From an uncultured Bacteroidota bacterium (GTDB lineage: Bacteria; Bacteroidota; Bacteroidia; AKYH767-A; OLB10): a DNA stretch of 35,585 nucleotides. The stretch is from contig CAIXTT010000312.1 of NCBI GenBank assembly GCA_903922455.1, forward strand, positions 1 to 35,585, written 5' to 3'. The notes below the pieces were generated by a model. It was given only the letters and a program-made list of their open reading frames with translations. It did not search any database and had not been told where the DNA came from. Shown one piece after another: positions 1-8,533 of this stretch; the stretch's first letter is position 1; the number at the start of each line of letters is the position of its first letter. A program made the position numbers and the translations under genes.

Positions 1-2237
1 ACTTTAACATGAAGGATAAGTCTTTTAAGAACGTTGAAATTAATAAGACTTGGAATTATGGCGCATTGAATTCAATTGTTACTTTACAAAATGAATTTTG
101 GTTGGGAACCGAAGGCTTTGGGTTAGTGGATTATGAATTTAGTGGGGATAGACGACTTCGGAATTTTAATTTTTCAAAAGGGTTTCCTTATAAGAAAGTG
201 ACCGCACTTATGCGTGATCGTGAAGGGAATGTTTGGATTATAGGAGATAATAAATTGATTTACTCTCCAGGCGAAAAAGTGGAATTCGTAAATGACGCAG
301 GTGGATTTGCTTTTGATAGTATTCAAGCAATAACAACAAGCAAAGATGGTTATGTTTGGTTTAGTAAACCTTCTGGTTTGTTTCGATTTGATTATTTAGC
401 AAATGATCAACAAAGAATCAGGAAGTATACATTAGATGCCAGTAAGAAAAAGTTGCATATCGTTTCTTTGTATGAAGATCGATTAGGATTTATTTGGGTA
501 GGGACCTTCGATGATGCATTGTATCGACTTGAACCAATAACTGGAAAAGTAAAAAAATACACAACTAAAGATGGATTGATTAATGCAAACATCATTTCTA
601 TTTCAGGGAATAAGGATGAATTTTGGTTAGCTACTTTAGAAGGAGTTGTGAAATGCAAAATTACTGACTCTTCATTGGATGATGACGAACCAATTTATTC
701 TTTTAGTAATAAGCAGGGTTTTGAATTGCCTTTTAATGGATTTGTATATAAGATTTTTGTAGATACTAAAGGTCGAGTTTGGTTTGGCACCGATGGGAAA
801 GGGATTGTCATGCATGAGAATAATAAAATTCAAGAATTTTCGGGTCTAAAAAATGGTAAAGTAATTTATTCGATCACAGAAGATCGCTACGGGAATATTT
901 GGTTTAATACACAACACCAAGGATTGTTACGATACGATGGTAAATCATTTCGAAATTTTAATCTTAGTAATGGATTGTCAGCTCTCGATATTTCAGGAAT
1001 CGAATCTGATAATATTGGAAATATAGTCGTGATTCATTCAAAAGGCTTGGATATAATCAATTCGAAAACTTTGGAAATTGAAAAAATTAGTTCGGAGTCG
1101 GGTATTAATACAATCGATGCAGATTTGAATACCGTTGCACGCGATGGTAAAGGAGGTGTATGGATTGGTTCTCGAAATAAACTGCTTCGTTATTATAGTT
1201 ATATTAAAGAGCGATCTTATCAACCACATTTAATTCTGAATGCTGTGTATACATTCATGAAGCAAAGTGTAGATGTTAGAGATTCTATTTTTGAGTATAA
1301 TCAGAATAATATCTCAATTGATTATATCGGACTCTGGTACACCAACCCCGATTTAGTTTCTTATCGTTATCGATTGGTAGGCTTCAGTAACACATGGATC
1401 CCAACTCGAGATCGAATCGTAACTTTTCCTAATTTACCACCCGGTTCTTATAAATTTGAAGTAATCGCAGGAATTGGTGGCCAGTTTAAAAGTCAAAAGG
1501 TATTAACCTATGGTTTTAGAATTATGAGGCCCATGTGGAAGGAAAATTGGTTTGTAATAGGTGTTTTTTTAGTTGTAGCCTCCTCTATTATTATTATTAT
1601 TCGTGATCGTGATGTGCGTTTGAGAAAGTTGGAAAATTTGAAAAAGGAAAAAATCGAATATCAATTCGCAACATTGAAGAGTCAAGTAAATCCTCATTTC
1701 TTGTTTAATAGTTTTAATACACTTATTGCAATAATTGAAATCGATAAGGAAACCGCTATTGCTTATGTAGAAAAATTATCTGACTATTTCAGAAATTTGG
1801 TACACCATCGTGATAAAGACTTAGTGACTCTACAAGAAGAACTGGAAATGGTAAATACGTATTATTATCTTCAGCAAAAAAGATTTGGTGATGCACTGCA
1901 GTTGAATATTGATATTCCTAATGAATGGAGATTTAAATATGGTGTGCCTCCATTGTCCTTGCAATTGTTAATTGAGAATGCAGTAAAACACAATGCCGTT
2001 TCGCATGAAACTCCACTCACTGTTTATGTGAATGTAAAGGAAAATGGAAGTTTAGTTATTCGAAATACACTGAATCCAAAAATGCATCCTGAACCAAGTG
2101 CCGGAATCGGCTTGCAGAATATAATTTCAAGATTCCAAATTGTTTCTGGACAAAAAGTGATCGTGAGTTTTATTCACGATGAATTCGTCGTTCAAATCCC
2201 CTTAATAAAATTGAATCATGAAAGTACTAATCATTGA
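1..2237 (+). CDS. LytS-type sensor histidine kinase with Reg_prop propeller and Y_Y_Y domain (5' partial)
   Basis: A membrane sensor kinase that should phosphorylate the LytTR regulator encoded next. The reading frame is open to the left window edge; the first ATG (base 9) gives 742 residues with no signal peptide and begins inside a propeller repeat, so the true N-terminus lies upstream. Residues about 1-400 hold repeated Reg_prop-like units (for example GRVWFGTDGKG, GNIWFNTQHQGLLRYDG). A Y_Y_Y domain covers about 430-495 and one membrane helix about 512-533, followed by a short charged coil. The His_kinase (PF06580) motif NPHFLFNSFN places the phospho-acceptor at His563. An N-box (LLIENAVKHN, about 650) and a GIGLQN glycine box (about 699) form the ATPase. 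The stop codon overlaps the regulator by 20 bp, which suggests translational coupling. The propeller ligand is unknown. Confidence 0.93.
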   Translation, partial: FNMKDKSFKNVEINKTWNYGALNSIVTLQNEFWLGTEGFGLVDYEFSGDRRLRNFNFSKGFPYKKVTALMRDREGNVWIIGDNKLIYSPGEKVEFVNDAGGFAFDSIQAITTSKDGYVWFSKPSGLFRFDYLANDQQRIRKYTLDASKKKLHIVSLYEDRLGFIWVGTFDDALYRLEPITGKVKKYTTKDGLINANIISISGNKDEFWLATLEGVVKCKITDSSLDDDEPIYSFSNKQGFELPFNGFVYKIFVDTKGRVWFGTDGKGIVMHENNKIQEFSGLKNGKVIYSITEDRYGNIWFNTQHQGLLRYDGKSFRNFNLSNGLSALDISGIESDNIGNIVVIHSKGLDIINSKTLEIEKISSESGINTIDADLNTVARDGKGGVWIGSRNKLLRYYSYIKERSYQPHLILNAVYTFMKQSVDVRDSIFEYNQNNISIDYIGLWYTNPDLVSYRYRLVGFSNTWIPTRDRIVTFPNLPPGSYKFEVIAGIGGQFKSQKVLTYGFRIMRPMWKENWFVIGVFLVVASSIIIIIRDRDVRLRKLENLKKEKIEYQFATLKSQVNPHFLFNSFNTLIAIIEIDKETAIAYVEKLSDYFRNLVHHRDKDLVTLQEELEMVNTYYYLQQKRFGDALQLNIDIPNEWRFKYGVPPLSLQLLIENAVKHNAVSHETPLTVYVNVKENGSLVIRNTLNPKMHPEPSAGIGLQNIISRFQIVSGQKVIVSFIHDEFVVQIPLIKLNHESTNH

Positions 2238-2976
2238 AGATGAAAAATTAGCTTCCGATCGTTTAACAAAAATGATTTTGGAGCTTGAACCTACTGCCGA
2301 AATTGTAGGTGCATTCGTAAGTGTAAAATCATCCGTTGAATGGTTGAAATCACACACCGCTCCGAATGTGATTATGATGGATATCAATTTGGCGGATGGA
2401 CAAAGCTTTGAAATCTTCTCGATGGTAGAAGTAAAAACACCAGTCATTTTTACAACAGCTTATGATCAACATGCATTGGATGCATTTAAAGTAAGTAGTA
2501 TCGACTATCTATTGAAGCCCATTAAAATGGAGGAGTTAAAGCGTGCTTTTGATAAGTTACATTCTTTCAATGAAGAGAATGCAAAGCAAATGGAAATTTT
2601 GTTGAAGAAATTCGCTATTCATTCTCGTGATTTTCAAAAAAGAATAGTAATTCGCTATGGCGATACTATCAAAATGGTGGAGGTAAGTGATGTAGCTTAT
2701 TTTTACACAGAGGAAAAGATTAATTACCTGTGTACACATGCTGATTTACGTTATCCGGTTGACCACAACTTGGATGAGTTGGAACATATGTTAGATCCTA
2801 GCGTTTTTTTTAGAATAAATAGGCAGTTTATAGTAAATATTCATGCTATCGATAAAATGTTAGCATGGTCGAAGTCAAGGGTGAAGGTGGTTCTACGCCC
2901 TCCAAGTAAAGAGGATACCATAGTAAGTACGGAGCGCTCACCGCATTTTAAAGGCTGGTTGACCGGAAATGGCTAA
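2218..2976 (+). CDS. LytTR-family response regulator
   Basis: A DNA-binding response regulator of 252 residues, the expected length for the receiver-LytTR class, and the partner of the overlapping sensor kinase. The CheY-like receiver (about 1-120) shows the acidic pair in LIIEDE, the phospho-acceptor Asp55 in MMDINLADG, a TTAY switch segment and the conserved Lys in LLKPIK (about 104). The LytTR domain (about 140-245) contains the typical FFRINRQFIVNIHAI segment. The ATG at 2218 lies inside the 3' end of the kinase gene. The targets are not visible. The next genes, encoding exported heme-motif proteins, start 99 bp downstream on the same strand and may be regulated by it or simply be neighbours. 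Confidence 0.95.
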   Translation: MKVLIIEDEKLASDRLTKMILELEPTAEIVGAFVSVKSSVEWLKSHTAPNVIMMDINLADGQSFEIFSMVEVKTPVIFTTAYDQHALDAFKVSSIDYLLKPIKMEELKRAFDKLHSFNEENAKQMEILLKKFAIHSRDFQKRIVIRYGDTIKMVEVSDVAYFYTEEKINYLCTHADLRYPVDHNLDELEHMLDPSVFFRINRQFIVNIHAIDKMLAWSKSRVKVVLRPPSKEDTIVSTERSPHFKGWLTGNG

Positions 2977-2990
2977 ATCGATTTCATAAT

Positions 2991-3020
2991 ACACTATTTT
3001 CCCGTTCAGTGTTTTTTTTT
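2991..3020 (+). terminator. weak candidate terminator after the response regulator
   Basis: A 5-bp inverted repeat (ACACT at 2991-2995, AGTGT at 3008-3012) is followed directly by a run of eight or more T. The stem is short, so this is a weak call, but it sits 15 bp after the regulator stop and before the next gene cluster. Confidence 0.3.
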
Positions 3021-3075
3021 CCTTGCTCAGAACATTTCAATTTTATTTGGTCAGGTGCGGATGTAATTTCGTATT

Positions 3076-3810
3076 ATGATTAGAATTGGAAAAATTGATA
3101 TCAGCAAAAGTGACTGGAAAATAGTCTTTGGTATATTTATATTTCTCTTTGCTTCATGTAAGCATGAAATTCCACAGCCTATTGTAACAACAGTTCCTGT
3201 TGACAATGGAAATGGGAATACATTGCCTTGTGATAGTGATAGCGTTTATTTTAATATGCAGATATTACCTTTTCTAATAGCAAACTGCGCACAACCTGGT
3301 TGTCATGATGCCGCATCGCATGAGGATGGTATAACAATTACCTCGTATCAAACATTGATGAATTCAGGGATTATTGTACCTGGCGACCCCAATGACGGTG
3401 ATTTTATGGATGTAATTACTACTTCTGATCCGAATGATAGAATGCCCCCACCACCTGCCCCTCTTTTAACAAGCCAACAAATACAATTAATTCAGACCTG
3501 GATTACTCAAGGAGCCCAAAACTTAAATTGTGATGGTGGATGTGATACATCAAACGTAACTTATAATGCAGTTGTTAAACCCATCATGCAAAATAAATGT
3601 CAAGGTTGCCATCAAGGTACGAGCCCCGGAGGAGGTGTAAATCTCTCGACTTACTTAGGTGTTCAGGGTTCTGCCATCGATGGTTCTTTATTAGGATCTG
3701 TTGAACATGCTCCCGGTTGGAGTGCAATGCCAAAAAACACAAGTAAATTACCCGATTGTGATATTGCAAAAATTAGAATATGGGTTAATGCTGGATCTCC
3801 TAATAATTAG
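3076..3810 (+). CDS. lipoprotein with two cytochrome c-like heme modules
   Basis: An exported lipoprotein of 244 residues. The N-terminus has a hydrophobic stretch (16-26) ending in a lipobox-like FASC, with acylation predicted at Cys28. Two related modules follow. The first has an unusual CX4CH site (Cys71, Cys76, His77) and the second a standard CXXCH site (Cys175, Cys178, His179). Each is followed by a Met-Pro segment (NDRMPP; WSAMPK) that could give an axial Met ligand, and ends with a conserved I-W-I/V-N/T-x-G-A/S stretch. This layout recalls the Planctomycete-type cytochrome c modules found in Bacteroidota surface proteins. The second module is clearly homologous to the whole mature part of the next gene's product. 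Electron transfer at the cell surface or periplasm is likely, but the partner is unknown. Confidence 0.85.
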   Translation: MIRIGKIDISKSDWKIVFGIFIFLFASCKHEIPQPIVTTVPVDNGNGNTLPCDSDSVYFNMQILPFLIANCAQPGCHDAASHEDGITITSYQTLMNSGIIVPGDPNDGDFMDVITTSDPNDRMPPPPAPLLTSQQIQLIQTWITQGAQNLNCDGGCDTSNVTYNAVVKPIMQNKCQGCHQGTSPGGGVNLSTYLGVQGSAIDGSLLGSVEHAPGWSAMPKNTSKLPDCDIAKIRIWVNAGSPNN

Positions 3811-3855
3811 TAAAATGCGTTGCTTACTATTTCTTATCTATAAATTAATACAAAA

Positions 3856-4236
3856 GTGGAATTATTAAAACGACTTCCCAATTCTTTGATCCTTGTCACT
3901 CTGCTGACACTCCTTTTTTCAGGATGTTATTATGATGTAGAGGAAGAATTGTATCCCAATAATGGTGTGTGTGATACAAGTAATGTTACTTATACCTTAA
4001 CAATTGCACCAATCTTGAATAGTAGCTGCAACGCTTGTCATAGTGGTGCTGCTCCAAGTGGAAATATTGATTTGAGTAATTATGCAAATGTAAAATTGTA
4101 TGCTGATGATGGCTCTCTCTATGGATCAATGAGCCATGATCCCAATTGGTCACAAATGCCTCAAGGAGGAAATAAAGTGGATGATTGCACTTTACTGAAA
4201 GTAAAAGTTTGGATTGATAATGGAGCAACGAATTAA
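3856..4236 (+). CDS. small lipoprotein with one cytochrome c-like heme module
   Basis: An exported lipoprotein of 126 residues with a clear lipobox, LFSG|C, giving Cys24 as the acylated residue. The mature part is a single module: CDTSNVTY, then CNACH (Cys58, Cys61, His62), WSQMPQGG as a possible Met ligand, and a final VKVWIDNGA. It aligns by eye with residues about 152-244 of the preceding lipoprotein, so the two are tandem paralogues. The start used is GTG at 3856; no upstream ATG gives a signal sequence, and starting later would lose it. It lies 45 bp after its paralogue and abuts the OB-fold gene downstream. A heme-binding role is inferred from the motif only. Confidence 0.82.
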   Translation: MELLKRLPNSLILVTLLTLLFSGCYYDVEEELYPNNGVCDTSNVTYTLTIAPILNSSCNACHSGAAPSGNIDLSNYANVKLYADDGSLYGSMSHDPNWSQMPQGGNKVDDCTLLKVKVWIDNGATN

Positions 4237-4653
4237 ATGAATATGAAAAAAATTGGATGGACATTATTAGCTCTTGTAAGTATTGTAGGGTTAATTGGAT
4301 ATTATTTATACAATAAACCAGTCGATAGTTTGGAAAACGTAAAACCTACAGCTACCTTATCAGCTGACTCGATCTTTCAACTGTTTGAGCAAAATGAAAT
4401 GATATCAAATGAACTTTATTTGAATAAAGTAATTTCTGTTTCAGGCAAAATTCAAAATGTGCTAGCAGATACAAGCGGTGTCGCTATTACTTTGCAAACA
4501 AGTTCTGGTCTTTTTGGTGTTACTTGTAAAATGGATGAAACGAATTTAGATGTTTCACATTATTCTGAGGGTCAAACGGTGAAAATAAAAGGATTATGCA
4601 CAGGTTATTTGATGGATGTGATTTTAATTCGATGTGTAGTAGAAAGTAATTAG
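4237..4653 (+). CDS. membrane-anchored OB-fold (tRNA_anti-like) protein
   Basis: A 138-residue protein with one N-terminal membrane helix (about 4-24) and a soluble remainder that resembles the tRNA_anti-like OB-fold family (PF12869) of Bacteroidota. The diagnostic features are the segment with NKVISVSGKIQNV, a middle strand with GVAITLQT, and the end with GQTVKIKGLCTGYLMD. It starts immediately after the stop of the heme lipoprotein, as ATG AAT ATG, so either ATG (4237 or 4243) could be used. Its place within a run of exported heme-motif proteins suggests an envelope role, not a tRNA role. The family name reflects fold similarity, and the molecular function is unknown. Confidence 0.8.
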   Translation: MNMKKIGWTLLALVSIVGLIGYYLYNKPVDSLENVKPTATLSADSIFQLFEQNEMISNELYLNKVISVSGKIQNVLADTSGVAITLQTSSGLFGVTCKMDETNLDVSHYSEGQTVKIKGLCTGYLMDVILIRCVVESN

Positions 4654-4689
4654 TAAAATCAAAACATACAAAACATAAAAAATAAAAAA

Positions 4690-5538
4690 ATGAATAAAGC
4701 GCGTTTAATGTCAATTGCAATTATTGCAATAGTAATGTCTACCGCATTCGGTATATTAAGTGATAATGGGAAAGCTGGTTATACCGGTTCTCCAAGCGAA
4801 TTGAATTGCGACGACTGTCACAGTACATTTGGAAGTTCAAATACAGGTACTGGTTCTATTTATGTTACTTCTTCTATGAACAACTGGCAGTATGTGCCAG
4901 GCCAAACCTATACGGTGAATGTCATTGTAAAGCAAAGTGGAAAACCACTTTTTGGAATAGGGTTTGAAGCACTTACTTCCACGAATGCCAATGCCGGTTC
5001 TTTAGTAATTACCAATCCTGCTAATACACAAATTAAAACTAAAACAGTGAGTGGTATAACTCGAAATAATGTAGTACATCAGTTAAATGGAGGGATGCAT
5101 GCTGATTCTGCCATTTTTACTTTTAATTGGGTTGCACCTTCTGCAAACATTGGAAATGTTACATTTTATTTTGCAGGGATTGCTGCTAATAATAATGGTA
5201 ATGAAAATAATGATTATGTTTATAATAGTTCTAAGGTGGTTACTCCTGCAAGTGCCACTGGAATTCTTGAACAAAGTAAAACTATTTCAGAGTTTAAATC
5301 TTATGTAAACACCGAAGGTCGAATTGCAATAGAGTTTCAATCGGCAACAGCTGACCAATCACGCATTAATTTGTACGATATGGATGGTCGAATGATCAGT
5401 TCGCAATTGATCGAAAGTCATTCAATTGGCGAAGTGAAATCAAGTATTTCAGTTCCTGCTGAATTAAAAAGCGGAAATTATATCGTATCCATTTTATCAA
5501 GTAATCAAAAACTAAGTTCAAAAATATTTATCCCTTAA
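4690..5538 (+). CDS. choice-of-anchor V domain protein with CxxCH motif and T9SS sorting domain
   Basis: A secreted protein of 282 residues. A signal peptide (about 1-21) is followed by a Reeler-like/choice-of-anchor V domain (about 25-185). Near its start lies NCDDCHS, a CxxCH motif with Cys40, Cys43 and His44 just after GYTGSPSE; such a motif at this position is common in this domain class. The last 80 or so residues form a type A T9SS C-terminal sorting domain: INLYDMDGRMI, then LKSGNYIVSILSSNQKLSSKIFI at the extreme end. The protein is thus expected to cross the outer membrane by T9SS. It is 13 bp upstream of the YceI gene in the same apparent operon. Whether the CxxCH binds heme is unproven. 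Confidence 0.88.
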   Translation: MNKARLMSIAIIAIVMSTAFGILSDNGKAGYTGSPSELNCDDCHSTFGSSNTGTGSIYVTSSMNNWQYVPGQTYTVNVIVKQSGKPLFGIGFEALTSTNANAGSLVITNPANTQIKTKTVSGITRNNVVHQLNGGMHADSAIFTFNWVAPSANIGNVTFYFAGIAANNNGNENNDYVYNSSKVVTPASATGILEQSKTISEFKSYVNTEGRIAIEFQSATADQSRINLYDMDGRMISSQLIESHSIGEVKSSISVPAELKSGNYIVSILSSNQKLSSKIFIP

Positions 5539-5551
5539 ATTTTATAAAATT

Positions 5552-6103
5552 ATGAAAACCTATTTAAGTATTATCGTGATGTTAGTTCTGTTTTCTGTTC
5601 AATCAGAAGCACAAAACAGATATTTTACCCGTACAGGAAAAGTGTATTTCTTATCAGATGCTCCGCTTGAAAAAATTGATGCTAAAAATTCTCAAGCAAC
5701 AAGTGTTTTTGATGCTACCTCAGGGCAGTTTGAATTCGCAATATTGATGAAAGCATTTGAATTTGAAAAGGCTTTGATGATGGAGCATTTTCATGAAAAT
5801 TATGTGGAGTCAGATAAGTACCCGAAAGCTGTATTCAAAGGGGTTATCTCCAATATTGCTAAGGTGGATTGTACAAAGGATGGCGTCTACCCTGTACTTT
5901 ATAAAGGTACATTAATGATGCATGGTGTAACGAAGGAAATGGAAGGCAAAGGGGTATTTACTGTGAAAGAAGGAAAGGTTGTTGCGCACAGTGATTTTAC
6001 AATTCTAATAAGCGATTATAAAATTGAAATTCCAAGTTTGGTTAAAGAGAAAGTGTCAAATGAAGTTAAAATTGTTGTCGATGCCAATTATGCTAAGATG
6101 TAA
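5552..6103 (+). CDS. YceI-family protein
   Basis: A 183-residue protein with a signal peptide ending near SEAQ (about residue 21). The mature part fits the YceI lipocalin-like beta-barrel family, which binds isoprenoid-type or other lipophilic molecules in the periplasm. Visible family features are the early GKVYFLSDAPLEKIDAKN strand pair, MMEHFHENYVESDKYPKAVF, where the conserved H-x-N/S...Y/FP region of YceI sits, the GTLMMHGVTKEM segment, and the final strands. Family length is about 170-190, so this is complete. It begins 13 bp after the anchor V gene and overlaps the signal-peptide start of the DUF5777 gene by 14 bp, which suggests joint translation. The ligand is unknown. Confidence 0.9.
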   Translation: MKTYLSIIVMLVLFSVQSEAQNRYFTRTGKVYFLSDAPLEKIDAKNSQATSVFDATSGQFEFAILMKAFEFEKALMMEHFHENYVESDKYPKAVFKGVISNIAKVDCTKDGVYPVLYKGTLMMHGVTKEMEGKGVFTVKEGKVVAHSDFTILISDYKIEIPSLVKEKVSNEVKIVVDANYAKM

Positions 6104-7010
6104 ATTATTTTATTTCATTTTTGGAGTTTGTTTCTTGATAAATTCTTCACCCATTGTTGCTCAAGATGATCTCTTGGATATGCTCGGTGAAGAAGAACAG
6201 AAGAAAGAATTTGTTAAGAATGCATTTAAAGCTACACGCGTCATCAGTGCTCAATCGTTAGAGCATGTTGGCGCTGGTGTTCTCGACTTTAGAATATTGC
6301 ATCGATTCGGACGAGTGAATGGGGGCTCTAGAGAGGCTTATGGATTAGACCAAGCAACGATTAGACTTGGATTGGATTATGGAATTAGTAATCGAATTAT
6401 GATTGGCCTAGGAAGATCTAGTAATAAAAAGGAAATAGATGGATTTGTAAAGTACCGTATGTTATGGCAAGGTAGGGGAAAAGGATCTGTTCCTTTCTCA
6501 ATGATACTTCTTTCGGGCTTTTCTAAGGATGGACTCGAATGGGCAAAACCTGAAAGAGAGAATTATTATACCTCACGATTTTCTTATTTTGGTCAAGCAT
6601 TGATTGGAAGAAAATTTTCGGATTCATTTAGTATGCAAATTATGCCTACCATCATACATCGTAATTTGGTAGCTAAAACTATTGATGAGCATGATATTTA
6701 TTCAATAGGAGTAGGAGCCCGCATTAAACTTACTCGCCGGCTTTCATTCAACGCCGAGTATTTTTACAATTTGCCCGATCAGTTATCATTAACTAGTACA
6801 AATCCGCTTTCTTTCGGTTTTGATATTGAAACCGGTGGTCACGTATTCCAATTACATTTCACAAATGCCCTCGGCATGAATGAACGTTCATTAATCACCG
6901 ATACAAATGGAAGTTGGGAAAAAGGCGATATCCATTTTGGATTTAATATTTCGAGAGTGTTTACTATTTCTACTCCTAAGGAATTTAGAAAGAAGAAGAC
7001 AGATGATTAG
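6090..7010 (+). CDS. DUF5777 family outer-membrane-type beta-barrel protein
   Basis: A protein of about 306 residues. I chose the ATG at 6090 because it gives a compact signal peptide (MLRCKLFYFIFGVCFLIN, ending near IVAQ); ATG 6081 is an alternative and the longer open frame from 6024 is inside the YceI gene. The mature part has LLDMLGEEEQKKEFV, then ATRVISAQSLEHVGAGVLDF and repeated amphipathic strands (for example GYGLD, IMIGLGRS, YFGQALIGRKF), typical of the DUF5777 family of Bacteroidota. It is probably an outer-membrane barrel. The start codon overlaps the end of the YceI gene by 14 bp. YceI/DUF5777 pairing here suggests a joint function, such as handling a lipophilic ligand, but this is inference. 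Confidence 0.85.
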   Translation: MLRCKLFYFIFGVCFLINSSPIVAQDDLLDMLGEEEQKKEFVKNAFKATRVISAQSLEHVGAGVLDFRILHRFGRVNGGSREAYGLDQATIRLGLDYGISNRIMIGLGRSSNKKEIDGFVKYRMLWQGRGKGSVPFSMILLSGFSKDGLEWAKPERENYYTSRFSYFGQALIGRKFSDSFSMQIMPTIIHRNLVAKTIDEHDIYSIGVGARIKLTRRLSFNAEYFYNLPDQLSLTSTNPLSFGFDIETGGHVFQLHFTNALGMNERSLITDTNGSWEKGDIHFGFNISRVFTISTPKEFRKKKTDD

Positions 7011-7618
7011 TGAACGATGCACTGATTTTTCAATTACTAATTGTTAAGCATTAATTTCGATTTTAATTCAAGATTCTTTTAACCACAGAGTTTCTAACTA
7101 TAATCCTAATTTTAATTTACCATTTCTTTCTTGCCCTCTTTCCCTTGAAGAGGCAGGGGAGAGGCCAATCTAATTAGGTAAAGAAATGTTGACCCAGAAT
7201 GGGTCATATGTTTATAGAAAAAATGTGGTTTGTTGTTGTTCGACCCCTTCGGGGTCGTATATTTTTGCGGTCTTTTTTCTATAAGCATATGATGCCTTCG
7301 GCATCTTGATCCTTTATATAATGACATTGGGGGGAGAGGCTAAAATTTAATTTTAGCTGCAATCTATTTTTATTTTAGCAATAAGTATTGACTGAAGTAA
7401 ATTCGAAATTTCATGTATTGACTTTGCAAATAACTAAGATGGCTAGTGATGAAATTATTGATGAGTATTGTGCAAATCCATTTTTTTGATAATTTCATTT
7501 TCAACTTTAATGTAGTTAAGTACTGATTTAACCATCAATTTTACCATTTTAAGGAAATTTATTTTACCTATCAGTAAGTAGTTCTCACATTTGTTTCGAA
7601 CTTAAAAAATTAATTAAA
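7011..7618. other. 608-bp intergenic region with repeats
   Basis: No convincing gene is present. The region holds a short hairpin-rich repeat (about 7120-7165 and 7331-7340, with ggggagaggc twice), the three-hairpin element listed separately, and a 10-bp inverted repeat (7449-7458 with 7489-7498, spacer 30 bp). The last 120 bp before the ATG at 7619 are very AT-rich and should contain the promoter of the fibronectin III protein, but I could not find a good match to the Bacteroidota TTG/TAnnTTTG pattern. Confidence 0.7.
7156..7340. repeat. three-hairpin symmetric element with 10-bp flanking direct repeats
   Basis: Three 15-nt hairpins, each with a 6-bp stem and 3-nt loop, lie at 7191-7205 (gaccca-gaa-tgggtc), 7242-7256 (gacccc-ttc-ggggtc) and 7291-7305 (gatgcc-ttc-ggcatc). 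The outer two sit at the tips of a 20-bp inverted repeat (7204-7223 with 7273-7292, one mismatch), so the element is nearly mirror-symmetric around the middle hairpin. The 10-mer ggggagaggc occurs at 7156-7165 and again at 7331-7340, as expected if about 165 bp were inserted into one site. It looks like a small non-coding dispersed repeat of the kind seen between Bacteroidota genes. No protein-coding content is supported. Confidence 0.7.
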
Positions 7619-8533
7619 ATGAAAAAAATGAAACTCACAATTTTAACATTGTTAATCGCAGTGTTATCGGTGCACCAATTAAGTGCTCAATGCCCTACTC
7701 CTTCTGGATTGGCAGCTTCAACAATGGGAGCAAACAGTTCATCTTTAACTTGGCAATCTGTAAGTGGTGTGACTAGTTATTTAGTGAAGGTAGAAAATGG
7801 TAGAAATAATCCAACTACGTTTTTAGTAACCGGAACCACAGTTAATCCTGTGTTTACTGTGAATGGATTAACAGGTGGATTTGTATATAAATTTAAAGTC
7901 AGATCTAATTGTGGCGGAAACCACAGCAGCTGGTCTCCTTGGTTTACTTTTGTTGCTGGTGGTGGCGCTATTAATTGTAATTTATTAACTGGACTTACAA
8001 TATCTAATACTACATCTACTGGAAGTACTTTTTCCTGGAATGCCAGTGCAGGCGGTTTGGGTTATGGAGTGAAAGTAGAAGACGGATCAGGGAATCCGAT
8101 AAATTTTTCTTTTGTTGCTAATACACTCACAAATAGTTACTCGATCACAGGTTTAAATCCATCAACTAATTATAAAGTAAAAATTAGAAAACTCTGTGCT
8201 GTTGGTGTTACAGGTCCTTGGTCTGCTTGGATGCCTTTTACAACTGCTGCTTTGCGTTTAGGTCAAGGTGATGATGTAGCAGAGAATTCTTTGATAAAGT
8301 TGTCTCCAAATCCTGCAAGTGATTTTTTCGAATTGAAAGTTTTAGATGGATCTGATGAAAAAATTGAATTAGTTCAGCTTTATGATTTAACTGGTAAAAT
8401 GGTAGCTAATTTATTTGTAAGTGATGAAAACATATCTAAATTTCCTATTCAAGATTTACACAACGGAGTTTATATTGTAAAGATTCAAACTAACAATAAT
8501 AGTATTTCAAAAAGATTAATTATTGCGAAGTAG
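7619..8533 (+). CDS. secreted protein with two fibronectin III domains and a T9SS sorting domain
   Basis: A 304-residue exported protein. A signal peptide (about 1-23, ending LSAQ) precedes two fibronectin type III-like domains (about 24-112 and 116-210). The two are internal duplicates: each starts with a Cys, carries a Y-x-VKVE(N/D)G strand, and ends with C...W-S-x-W-x-x-F-T. The T9SS type A sorting domain occupies about 222-304, with the usual LSPNPASD opening, ELVQLYDLTGKMV, HNGVYIVKI and a terminal SKRLIIAK. It stands alone after a long intergenic region and ends before a strong terminator, so it is probably a single-gene unit. A surface binding or adhesive role is likely; there is no catalytic motif. 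Confidence 0.92.
   Translation: MKKMKLTILTLLIAVLSVHQLSAQCPTPSGLAASTMGANSSSLTWQSVSGVTSYLVKVENGRNNPTTFLVTGTTVNPVFTVNGLTGGFVYKFKVRSNCGGNHSSWSPWFTFVAGGGAINCNLLTGLTISNTTSTGSTFSWNASAGGLGYGVKVEDGSGNPINFSFVANTLTNSYSITGLNPSTNYKVKIRKLCAVGVTGPWSAWMPFTTAALRLGQGDDVAENSLIKLSPNPASDFFELKVLDGSDEKIELVQLYDLTGKMVANLFVSDENISKFPIQDLHNGVYIVKIQTNNNSISKRLIIAK

Follow-up and report, generated by a model that had tools for sequence, protein, structure and literature searches.

A cassette of six genes, located in a 35,585-nt stretch of DNA from an uncultured Bacteroidota bacterium (contig CAIXTT010000312.1; the whole stretch is referred to as the window), combines small cytochromes c with a YceI lipocalin-like protein and a DUF5777 protein, a predicted outer-membrane barrel. 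The cassette is real and no chance cluster. Its conserved core consists of YceI, DUF5777 and a small electron carrier, and a protein exported by the type IX secretion system (T9SS) is an optional, lineage-specific extra. On balance we lean towards an envelope redox module, which would pass electrons between a quinone or isoprenoid carried by YceI and the cell surface by way of small carriers, the barrel and the T9SS protein, under the control of its own sensor and regulator.

Gene content of the cassette

The cassette genes all lie on the + strand; coordinates are positions in the window.

3076..3810, + strand: two-domain (diheme) cytochrome c lipoprotein (Pfam PSCyt1, 2.8e-12; CBB3-like, 1.4e-5), haem motifs CX4CH at 3286-3306 and CXXCH at 3598-3612
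3856..4236, + strand: monoheme cytochrome c lipoprotein, GTG start, CXXCH at 4027-4041, distal Met-Pro
4237..4653, + strand: membrane-anchored OB-fold protein (Pfam tRNA_anti-like, 1.2e-18)
4690..5538, + strand: Reeler / choice-of-anchor V protein (anchor V, 9e-25), CXXCH at 4807-4821, T9SS type A sorting tail
5552..6103, + strand: YceI lipocalin-like periplasmic protein (Pfam PF04264, 1e-13)
6081..7010, + strand: DUF5777 protein (PF19089, 5e-92), predicted outer-membrane barrel, start ATG at 6081 or alternative ATG at 6090

Calling of open reading frames (ORFs) placed the six genes where the initial annotation had drawn them, on one strand and with gaps of 0 to 45 bp and one overlap; in 5' to 3' order the gaps are 45, 0, 36 and 13 bp, followed by an overlap of 14-23 bp into the DUF5777 gene. 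Pfam and profile matches bore out the families it had named (cytochromes, OB, anchor V, YceI and DUF5777). Its count of three haem-motif proteins holds as well, comprising the two cytochromes, the first with two motifs, and the Reeler protein. The view that every product is exported needs refinement for the OB-fold protein, whose N-terminus is a membrane anchor, not a secretion signal.

The conserved core of the cassette

For a survey of gene neighbourhoods, up to 20 kb around ~140 DUF5777 genes were taken, ORFs were called and family profiles were built; a radius of 5 kb defined a neighbour. Of 297 sampled Bacteroidota genomes, 116 (39%; 66 of 141 genera) encode DUF5777, as do 60 of 61 relatives, a set that includes the genome of the window; 14 control genomes had none. 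At 136 DUF5777 loci from 73 genera, YceI was a neighbour in 108 cases, a small cytochrome c in 113 and the OB-fold protein in 48, and all three were present at 46 loci. DUF5777 was paired with YceI in 61 of the 73 genera and with cytochrome c in 63. YceI was thus observed near 79% of the loci, compared to a chance expectation of ~1.3%, which follows from an average of ~5 YceI genes in each DUF5777 genome; a formal probability of this pairing is not meaningful, since the loci are related by descent. Repeated co-occurrence across genomes had been set beforehand as the test of the gene set, and with these 136 loci the idea strongly survived. The six genes as such did not hold as the unit: the core of YceI, DUF5777 and a redox carrier is smaller, and the unit in the family of the window is larger, with nine genes that include a two-component system, and an operator. 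Anchor V, one of the six, turned out to be lineage-restricted.

Small electron carriers are exchanged between lineages

The small cytochromes share an invariant lipobox Cys, a C-X(n)-CH motif and a near-invariant distal Met-Pro, compatible with a role as distal haem ligand. The motif spacing X is 2 or 4, and rarely 5, 6 or 9. With the haem motif and the distal Met these proteins have the features of class I-like c-type cytochromes, and their family profile matches the solved class I cytochromes c6, c551 and FoxE. CX2CH and CX4CH interchange among the small cytochromes and within the Reeler protein, which points to haem attachment as their function. The host genome encodes a cytochrome c assembly protein (PF01578), and the cassette cytochromes are predicted from their motifs to carry haem covalently.

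Eleven loci carry a Rieske [2Fe-2S] lipoprotein of 150 aa (PF00355). A cytochrome c is present in only one of these 11 loci, compared to 112 of the 125 others (Fisher p = 2.7e-8); in some lineages, the Rieske lipoprotein often replaces the cytochrome c. This mutual replacement at the same position bears on the possibility of a conserved neighbourhood without joint function, for example separate envelope genes held together by shared regulation only. The confinement of the operator, the kinase and anchor V to part of the tree is in line with such an arrangement. Carrier replacement, gaps of few bp and clusters recurring over 73 genera argue against it, and we regard it as highly improbable.

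At other DUF5777 loci, the neighbours include an ethylbenzene-dehydrogenase-like haem protein, NrfD with ferredoxin genes, or diheme cytochromes; electron transfer is what these variable partners have in common. One DUF5777 subgroup (L081, L084, L121, L122, L124, L126 and L129) is found with EB_dh-type haem proteins, in some cases together with NrfD and 4Fe-4S ferredoxin genes. Such neighbours suggest a connection with a complex that reduces or oxidises quinone.

A paralogous DUF5777 group (L160, L161, L163-L166, L168, L172 and L033 (G000:C244)) pairs with two small lipoproteins that have lengthened haem-like motifs (CX5CH, CX6CH or CX9CH). The genome of the window itself has one copy of this group (CGSTGGSATSCH).

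The YceI protein and the DUF5777 barrel

The YceI protein of the window scores 52.2 bits against a PF04264 cut-off of 23.7 and thus belongs to the family by sequence. As a single sequence it gave chance-level matches only in the PDB; the family profile was needed and matched solved YceI structures, including isoprenoid-binding members (E. coli YceI 1y0g, 3.6e-14; 5ixg, 3hpe and 1wub). Known ligands of YceI proteins are ubiquinone-8 or other polyisoprenoids, and in two studied systems the proteins are paired with cytochromes (PMC9113575, PMC8981238). By analogy, we infer that the cassette YceI may carry an isoprenoid quinone or another polyisoprenoid.

The DUF5777 protein is a full-length member of PF19089 (308 bits, cut-off 23.1). 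AlphaFold2 predicted a 12-strand barrel with a high mean confidence (predicted local distance difference test score, pLDDT, 92.8), whose loop lengths indicate short turns on the periplasmic side and long loops outside. The barrel is without a close relative among solved structures, and the DUF5777 family profile gave no convincing sequence match in the PDB. A bis-histidine haem site within the barrel was considered for H73 and H253, two histidines conserved without exception in 81 DUF5777 proteins. The order of the strands and the alternation of their sides place both residues on the hydrophobic face, but at opposite ends of strands 1 and 11, which makes a shared haem site unlikely. No paper using the term DUF5777 was found in our incomplete literature collection, and the family is without a described function.

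The T9SS-exported surface partner

The Reeler protein ends in a sorting tail (Por_Secre_tail, TIGR04183), and SprA of the T9SS is encoded in the host genome, identifying the protein as a T9SS cargo. Relatives of the window have a Reeler protein with CXXCH or CX4CH. In other lineages the same slot is occupied by a DOMON-like protein (~7 loci), plastocyanin (2 loci) or a temptin domain with CXXCH (2 loci). The structural model of the Reeler protein is of modest quality (pLDDT 77), and one of its domains matches the Reeler domain of F-spondin with a template modelling (TM) score of 0.63-0.65 to the target. Generic immunoglobulin-like folds led the Foldseek list and were set aside, the Reeler match being the only one with sensible coverage of one domain. 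Viral contigs contained no relative of this protein.

The initial annotation had seen in the cassette a working unit, perhaps a lipophilic-cofactor or electron-transfer system. Since a Rieske protein replaces the cytochrome, and plastocyanin, DOMON or CXXCH proteins replace the surface partner, an electron-transfer unit, and with it a redox role of the cassette, is well supported.

A two-component system and a putative operator precede the cassette

Three further features lie upstream of the first cytochrome gene.

3..2237, + strand: sensor histidine kinase, C-terminal 744 aa (Pfam Reg_prop propeller, Y_Y_Y and LytS-type His_kinase), position kept in family relatives
2218..2976, + strand: LytTR response regulator (Pfam), 20-bp overlap with the kinase gene
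3001..3030, + strand: putative LytTR operator, direct repeat of 21-bp period consisting of CCCGTTCAG (3001-3009), 12 bp and CTTGCTCAG (3022-3030)

The window begins within the kinase gene; the N-terminus of the kinase and a second YceI gene (yceI2) are found on contig C225 of the same genome. The 3' end of C225 (L034:7004-8407) has an exact 141-bp overlap with positions 1-141 of the window, and joining the two yields an intact kinase ORF of 969 aa. From this overlap and the matching gene order in relatives, the two contigs very likely adjoin. The order of the family unit is yceI2, sensor kinase (~965 aa), LytTR regulator (~255 aa), diheme cytochrome, monoheme cytochrome, OB, Reeler, yceI and DUF5777. 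This nine-gene order was seen in ~10 loci of the family of the window and in one of its order, with Reeler in only part of them; gaps are mostly below 60 bp, except between regulator and cytochrome.

In that gap, 75 bp before the ATG of the first cytochrome, lies the putative operator. The paired repeat recurs in 11 non-redundant loci; in ten of them it lies 75-111 bp before the start of the first cytochrome, and in the eleventh, which has an uncertain start call, 34 bp before it. The published degenerate LytTR consensus was too loose and gave no signal above shuffled sequences; a motif taken directly from the sequences was used instead, and its test left out one sequence at a time. The matrix scored 18.8 at a period of 21, compared to at most 6.5 for every other period in the range 12-31 and to −1.9 ± 1.0 for shuffles, in a test that is not fully independent because the motif was first spotted by eye. 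A scan of all loci on both strands (5.2 Mb, counted on both) placed 12 of the 13 best pairs directly upstream of the first cytochrome of a cassette; one of these 12, in L136, was not among the sequences from which the matrix was built. Described LytTR operators consist of repeats of 9-11 bp with a spacer of 11-13 bp (PMC4847170, PMC6193735), a geometry that the 9-12-9 layout of the window and its relatives fits. We infer from these patterns that the LytTR regulator would bind the repeat. Genome-wide, the operator pattern had 6 matches compared to 4 in the control, giving no regulon outside the window, and a scan for sigma-70 promoters revealed no excess over shuffled sequence. In three loci of one genus (L044, L119 and L120), the module has a different regulatory setting and is preceded by an extracytoplasmic function (ECF) sigma factor, FecR and a TonB receptor with STN domain.

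Comparison with known systems

Propeller sensors of the type found here often sense glycans. This counts for an extracellular electron donor serving oxidative polymer breakdown, as does the DOMON protein at some loci, which recalls the cytochrome of cellobiose dehydrogenase. The model for such a donor is Cbp2D/Cbp2E of Cellvibrio and Saccharophagus, secreted proteins in which a YceI-like domain (X158; with ubiquinone-8 in one structure) and c-type cytochrome domains are paired as in the cassette; they are single multidomain polypeptides with a CBM2 and a link to a lytic polysaccharide monooxygenase (LPMO), whereas the cassette consists of separate genes (PMC8981238, PMC12542752). Pfam revealed no carbohydrate-binding module in the cassette, and LPMO_10 was present in none of 11 genomes of the family or order of the window. 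A role of this kind is therefore very unlikely.

Another candidate function is to shield the outer membrane from lipid peroxidation. YceI would bring a reduced isoprenoid quinone to this membrane, where it would quench peroxyl radicals, and the cytochromes or the Rieske protein would recycle it, much as in BcnA-LcoA but with soluble carriers taking the place of cytochrome b561. In Burkholderia, BcnA (YceI family) and LcoA (b561) limit lipid peroxidation, which provides a precedent (PMC9113575). The distribution of DUF5777 fits as well: in our sample it is confined to genomes with a haem-copper oxidase, and the comparison with terminal oxidases proposed at the outset found COX1 in all 45 sampled DUF5777-positive genomes compared to 24 of 29 negative ones. 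BcnA-LcoA (of the E. coli yceJ-yceI type) has in common with the cassette a YceI gene adjoining a cytochrome gene, the envelope location and a redox role. However, the partner there is a membrane cytochrome b561, and barrel, lipoprotein cytochromes, T9SS protein and LytTR operator are lacking. No b561 is encoded in the cassette, and none (Ni_hydr_CYTB-type, PF01292) scored over cut-off in the 11 DUF5777 genomes of the family or order of the window. Peroxidation protection also leaves the outer-membrane barrel and the exported redox proteins unexplained, and regulation relies on a propeller sensor, which is no known sensor of peroxide. We consider this explanation unlikely. As the 11 genomes lack both PF01292 b561 and LPMO_10, the cassette is neither a BcnA-LcoA nor a Cbp2D/E system as defined.

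Porin-cytochrome conduits of the Mtr type likewise encode an outer-membrane barrel together with cytochromes c and a surface redox protein. There a large barrel is filled by a multihaem cytochrome, whereas the barrel of the cassette has 12 strands and its haem-motif proteins carry one or two motifs each. In eukaryotic reductases of the FRRS1/CYBDOM type, Reeler and DOMON occur with cytochrome b561; both domains fill the surface slot of the cassette, in different lineages. The bacterial proteins differ in being separate T9SS cargoes with CXXCH in the Reeler protein and no b561.

Proposed mechanism

In the envelope redox module that we favour, YceI would present an isoprenoid quinone or another polyisoprenoid in the periplasm. 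Next to it, small lipoproteins, here the diheme and monoheme cytochromes and in other lineages Rieske proteins, would exchange electrons. The DUF5777 barrel would be the outer-membrane component, and the T9SS-exported protein (a haem-motif Reeler here; DOMON, plastocyanin or CXXCH proteins elsewhere) would act as redox partner on the surface side. The presence of COX1 in all 45 sampled DUF5777-positive genomes speaks for this module as well. Within the family of the window, the propeller sensor kinase and the LytTR regulator would switch the cassette on via the repeat of 21-bp period. Electrons would thus flow between the quinone pool and the cell surface; the direction of this flow, the part played by the barrel, the route across the membrane and the physiological substrate or partner belong to the conjectural side of the proposal.

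Several observations weigh against this mechanism. Mono- and diheme proteins on their own are unable to span barrel and membrane, and bacterial DOMON domains may bind sugars rather than haem. About 20% of the DUF5777 loci have no YceI nearby, and 13 of 136 have neither a cytochrome nor a Rieske protein. Finally, among solved structures the barrel best matches FapF, OmpG and NanC, which are ordinary small porins (Foldseek TM score of at most 0.50 over the query), a likeness compatible with plain solute transport. Uptake or export of a lipophilic or aromatic compound, with DUF5777 as channel, YceI as periplasmic carrier and the cytochromes in an oxidation step, would fit such a porin-like barrel, and TonB receptor, FecR and sigma genes adjoin some loci. 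The hydrocarbon channels CymD, TodX, TbuX and FadL appear in the same match list at lower ranks. However, no recurring enzyme of aromatic or lipid catabolism was seen in the operons, and the partner that varies between lineages nearly always has an electron-transfer or haem/copper-type domain and is not a catabolic enzyme. Such transport therefore appears quite unlikely.

Downstream surroundings

The interval between DUF5777 and the next gene contains, at 7190-7310, several short perfect hairpins (TGACCCAGAATGGGTCA, CGACCCCTTCGGGGTCG and GATGCCTTCGGCATC), which resemble a repeat element or terminators. A 600-bp gap sets the cassette apart from the gene at 7619-8533, whose secreted product combines two fibronectin III domains with a T9SS tail. 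A long surface-polysaccharide locus follows at 8629-33030; named by ORF reading only, its genes encode glycosyltransferases, acyltransferases, an asparagine synthase, a Wzc-like kinase, an ABC transporter, a GDP-mannose dehydratase and a GDP-fucose synthase-like protein.

Implications

The families of the individual parts are known, but their combination, the carrier swap, the regulator-operator link and the role of DUF5777 appear to be undescribed, as judged from a literature collection that is incomplete. The neighbourhood provides DUF5777 with a role that can be tested and connects it with YceI, a family of still debated function, and the link between regulator and operator offers a way toward finding the inducing signal. 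A more far-reaching idea, doubtful at present, is that DUF5777 modules are a general, undescribed electron machine across the outer membrane of Bacteroidota, in which a 12-strand barrel, mono-/diheme or Rieske carriers, a quinone delivered by a lipocalin and T9SS redox proteins would replace multihaem conduits. Provided that electrons do pass to or from the cell's exterior, an unrecognised surface redox route would exist in a large group of aerobic bacteria from water and soil.

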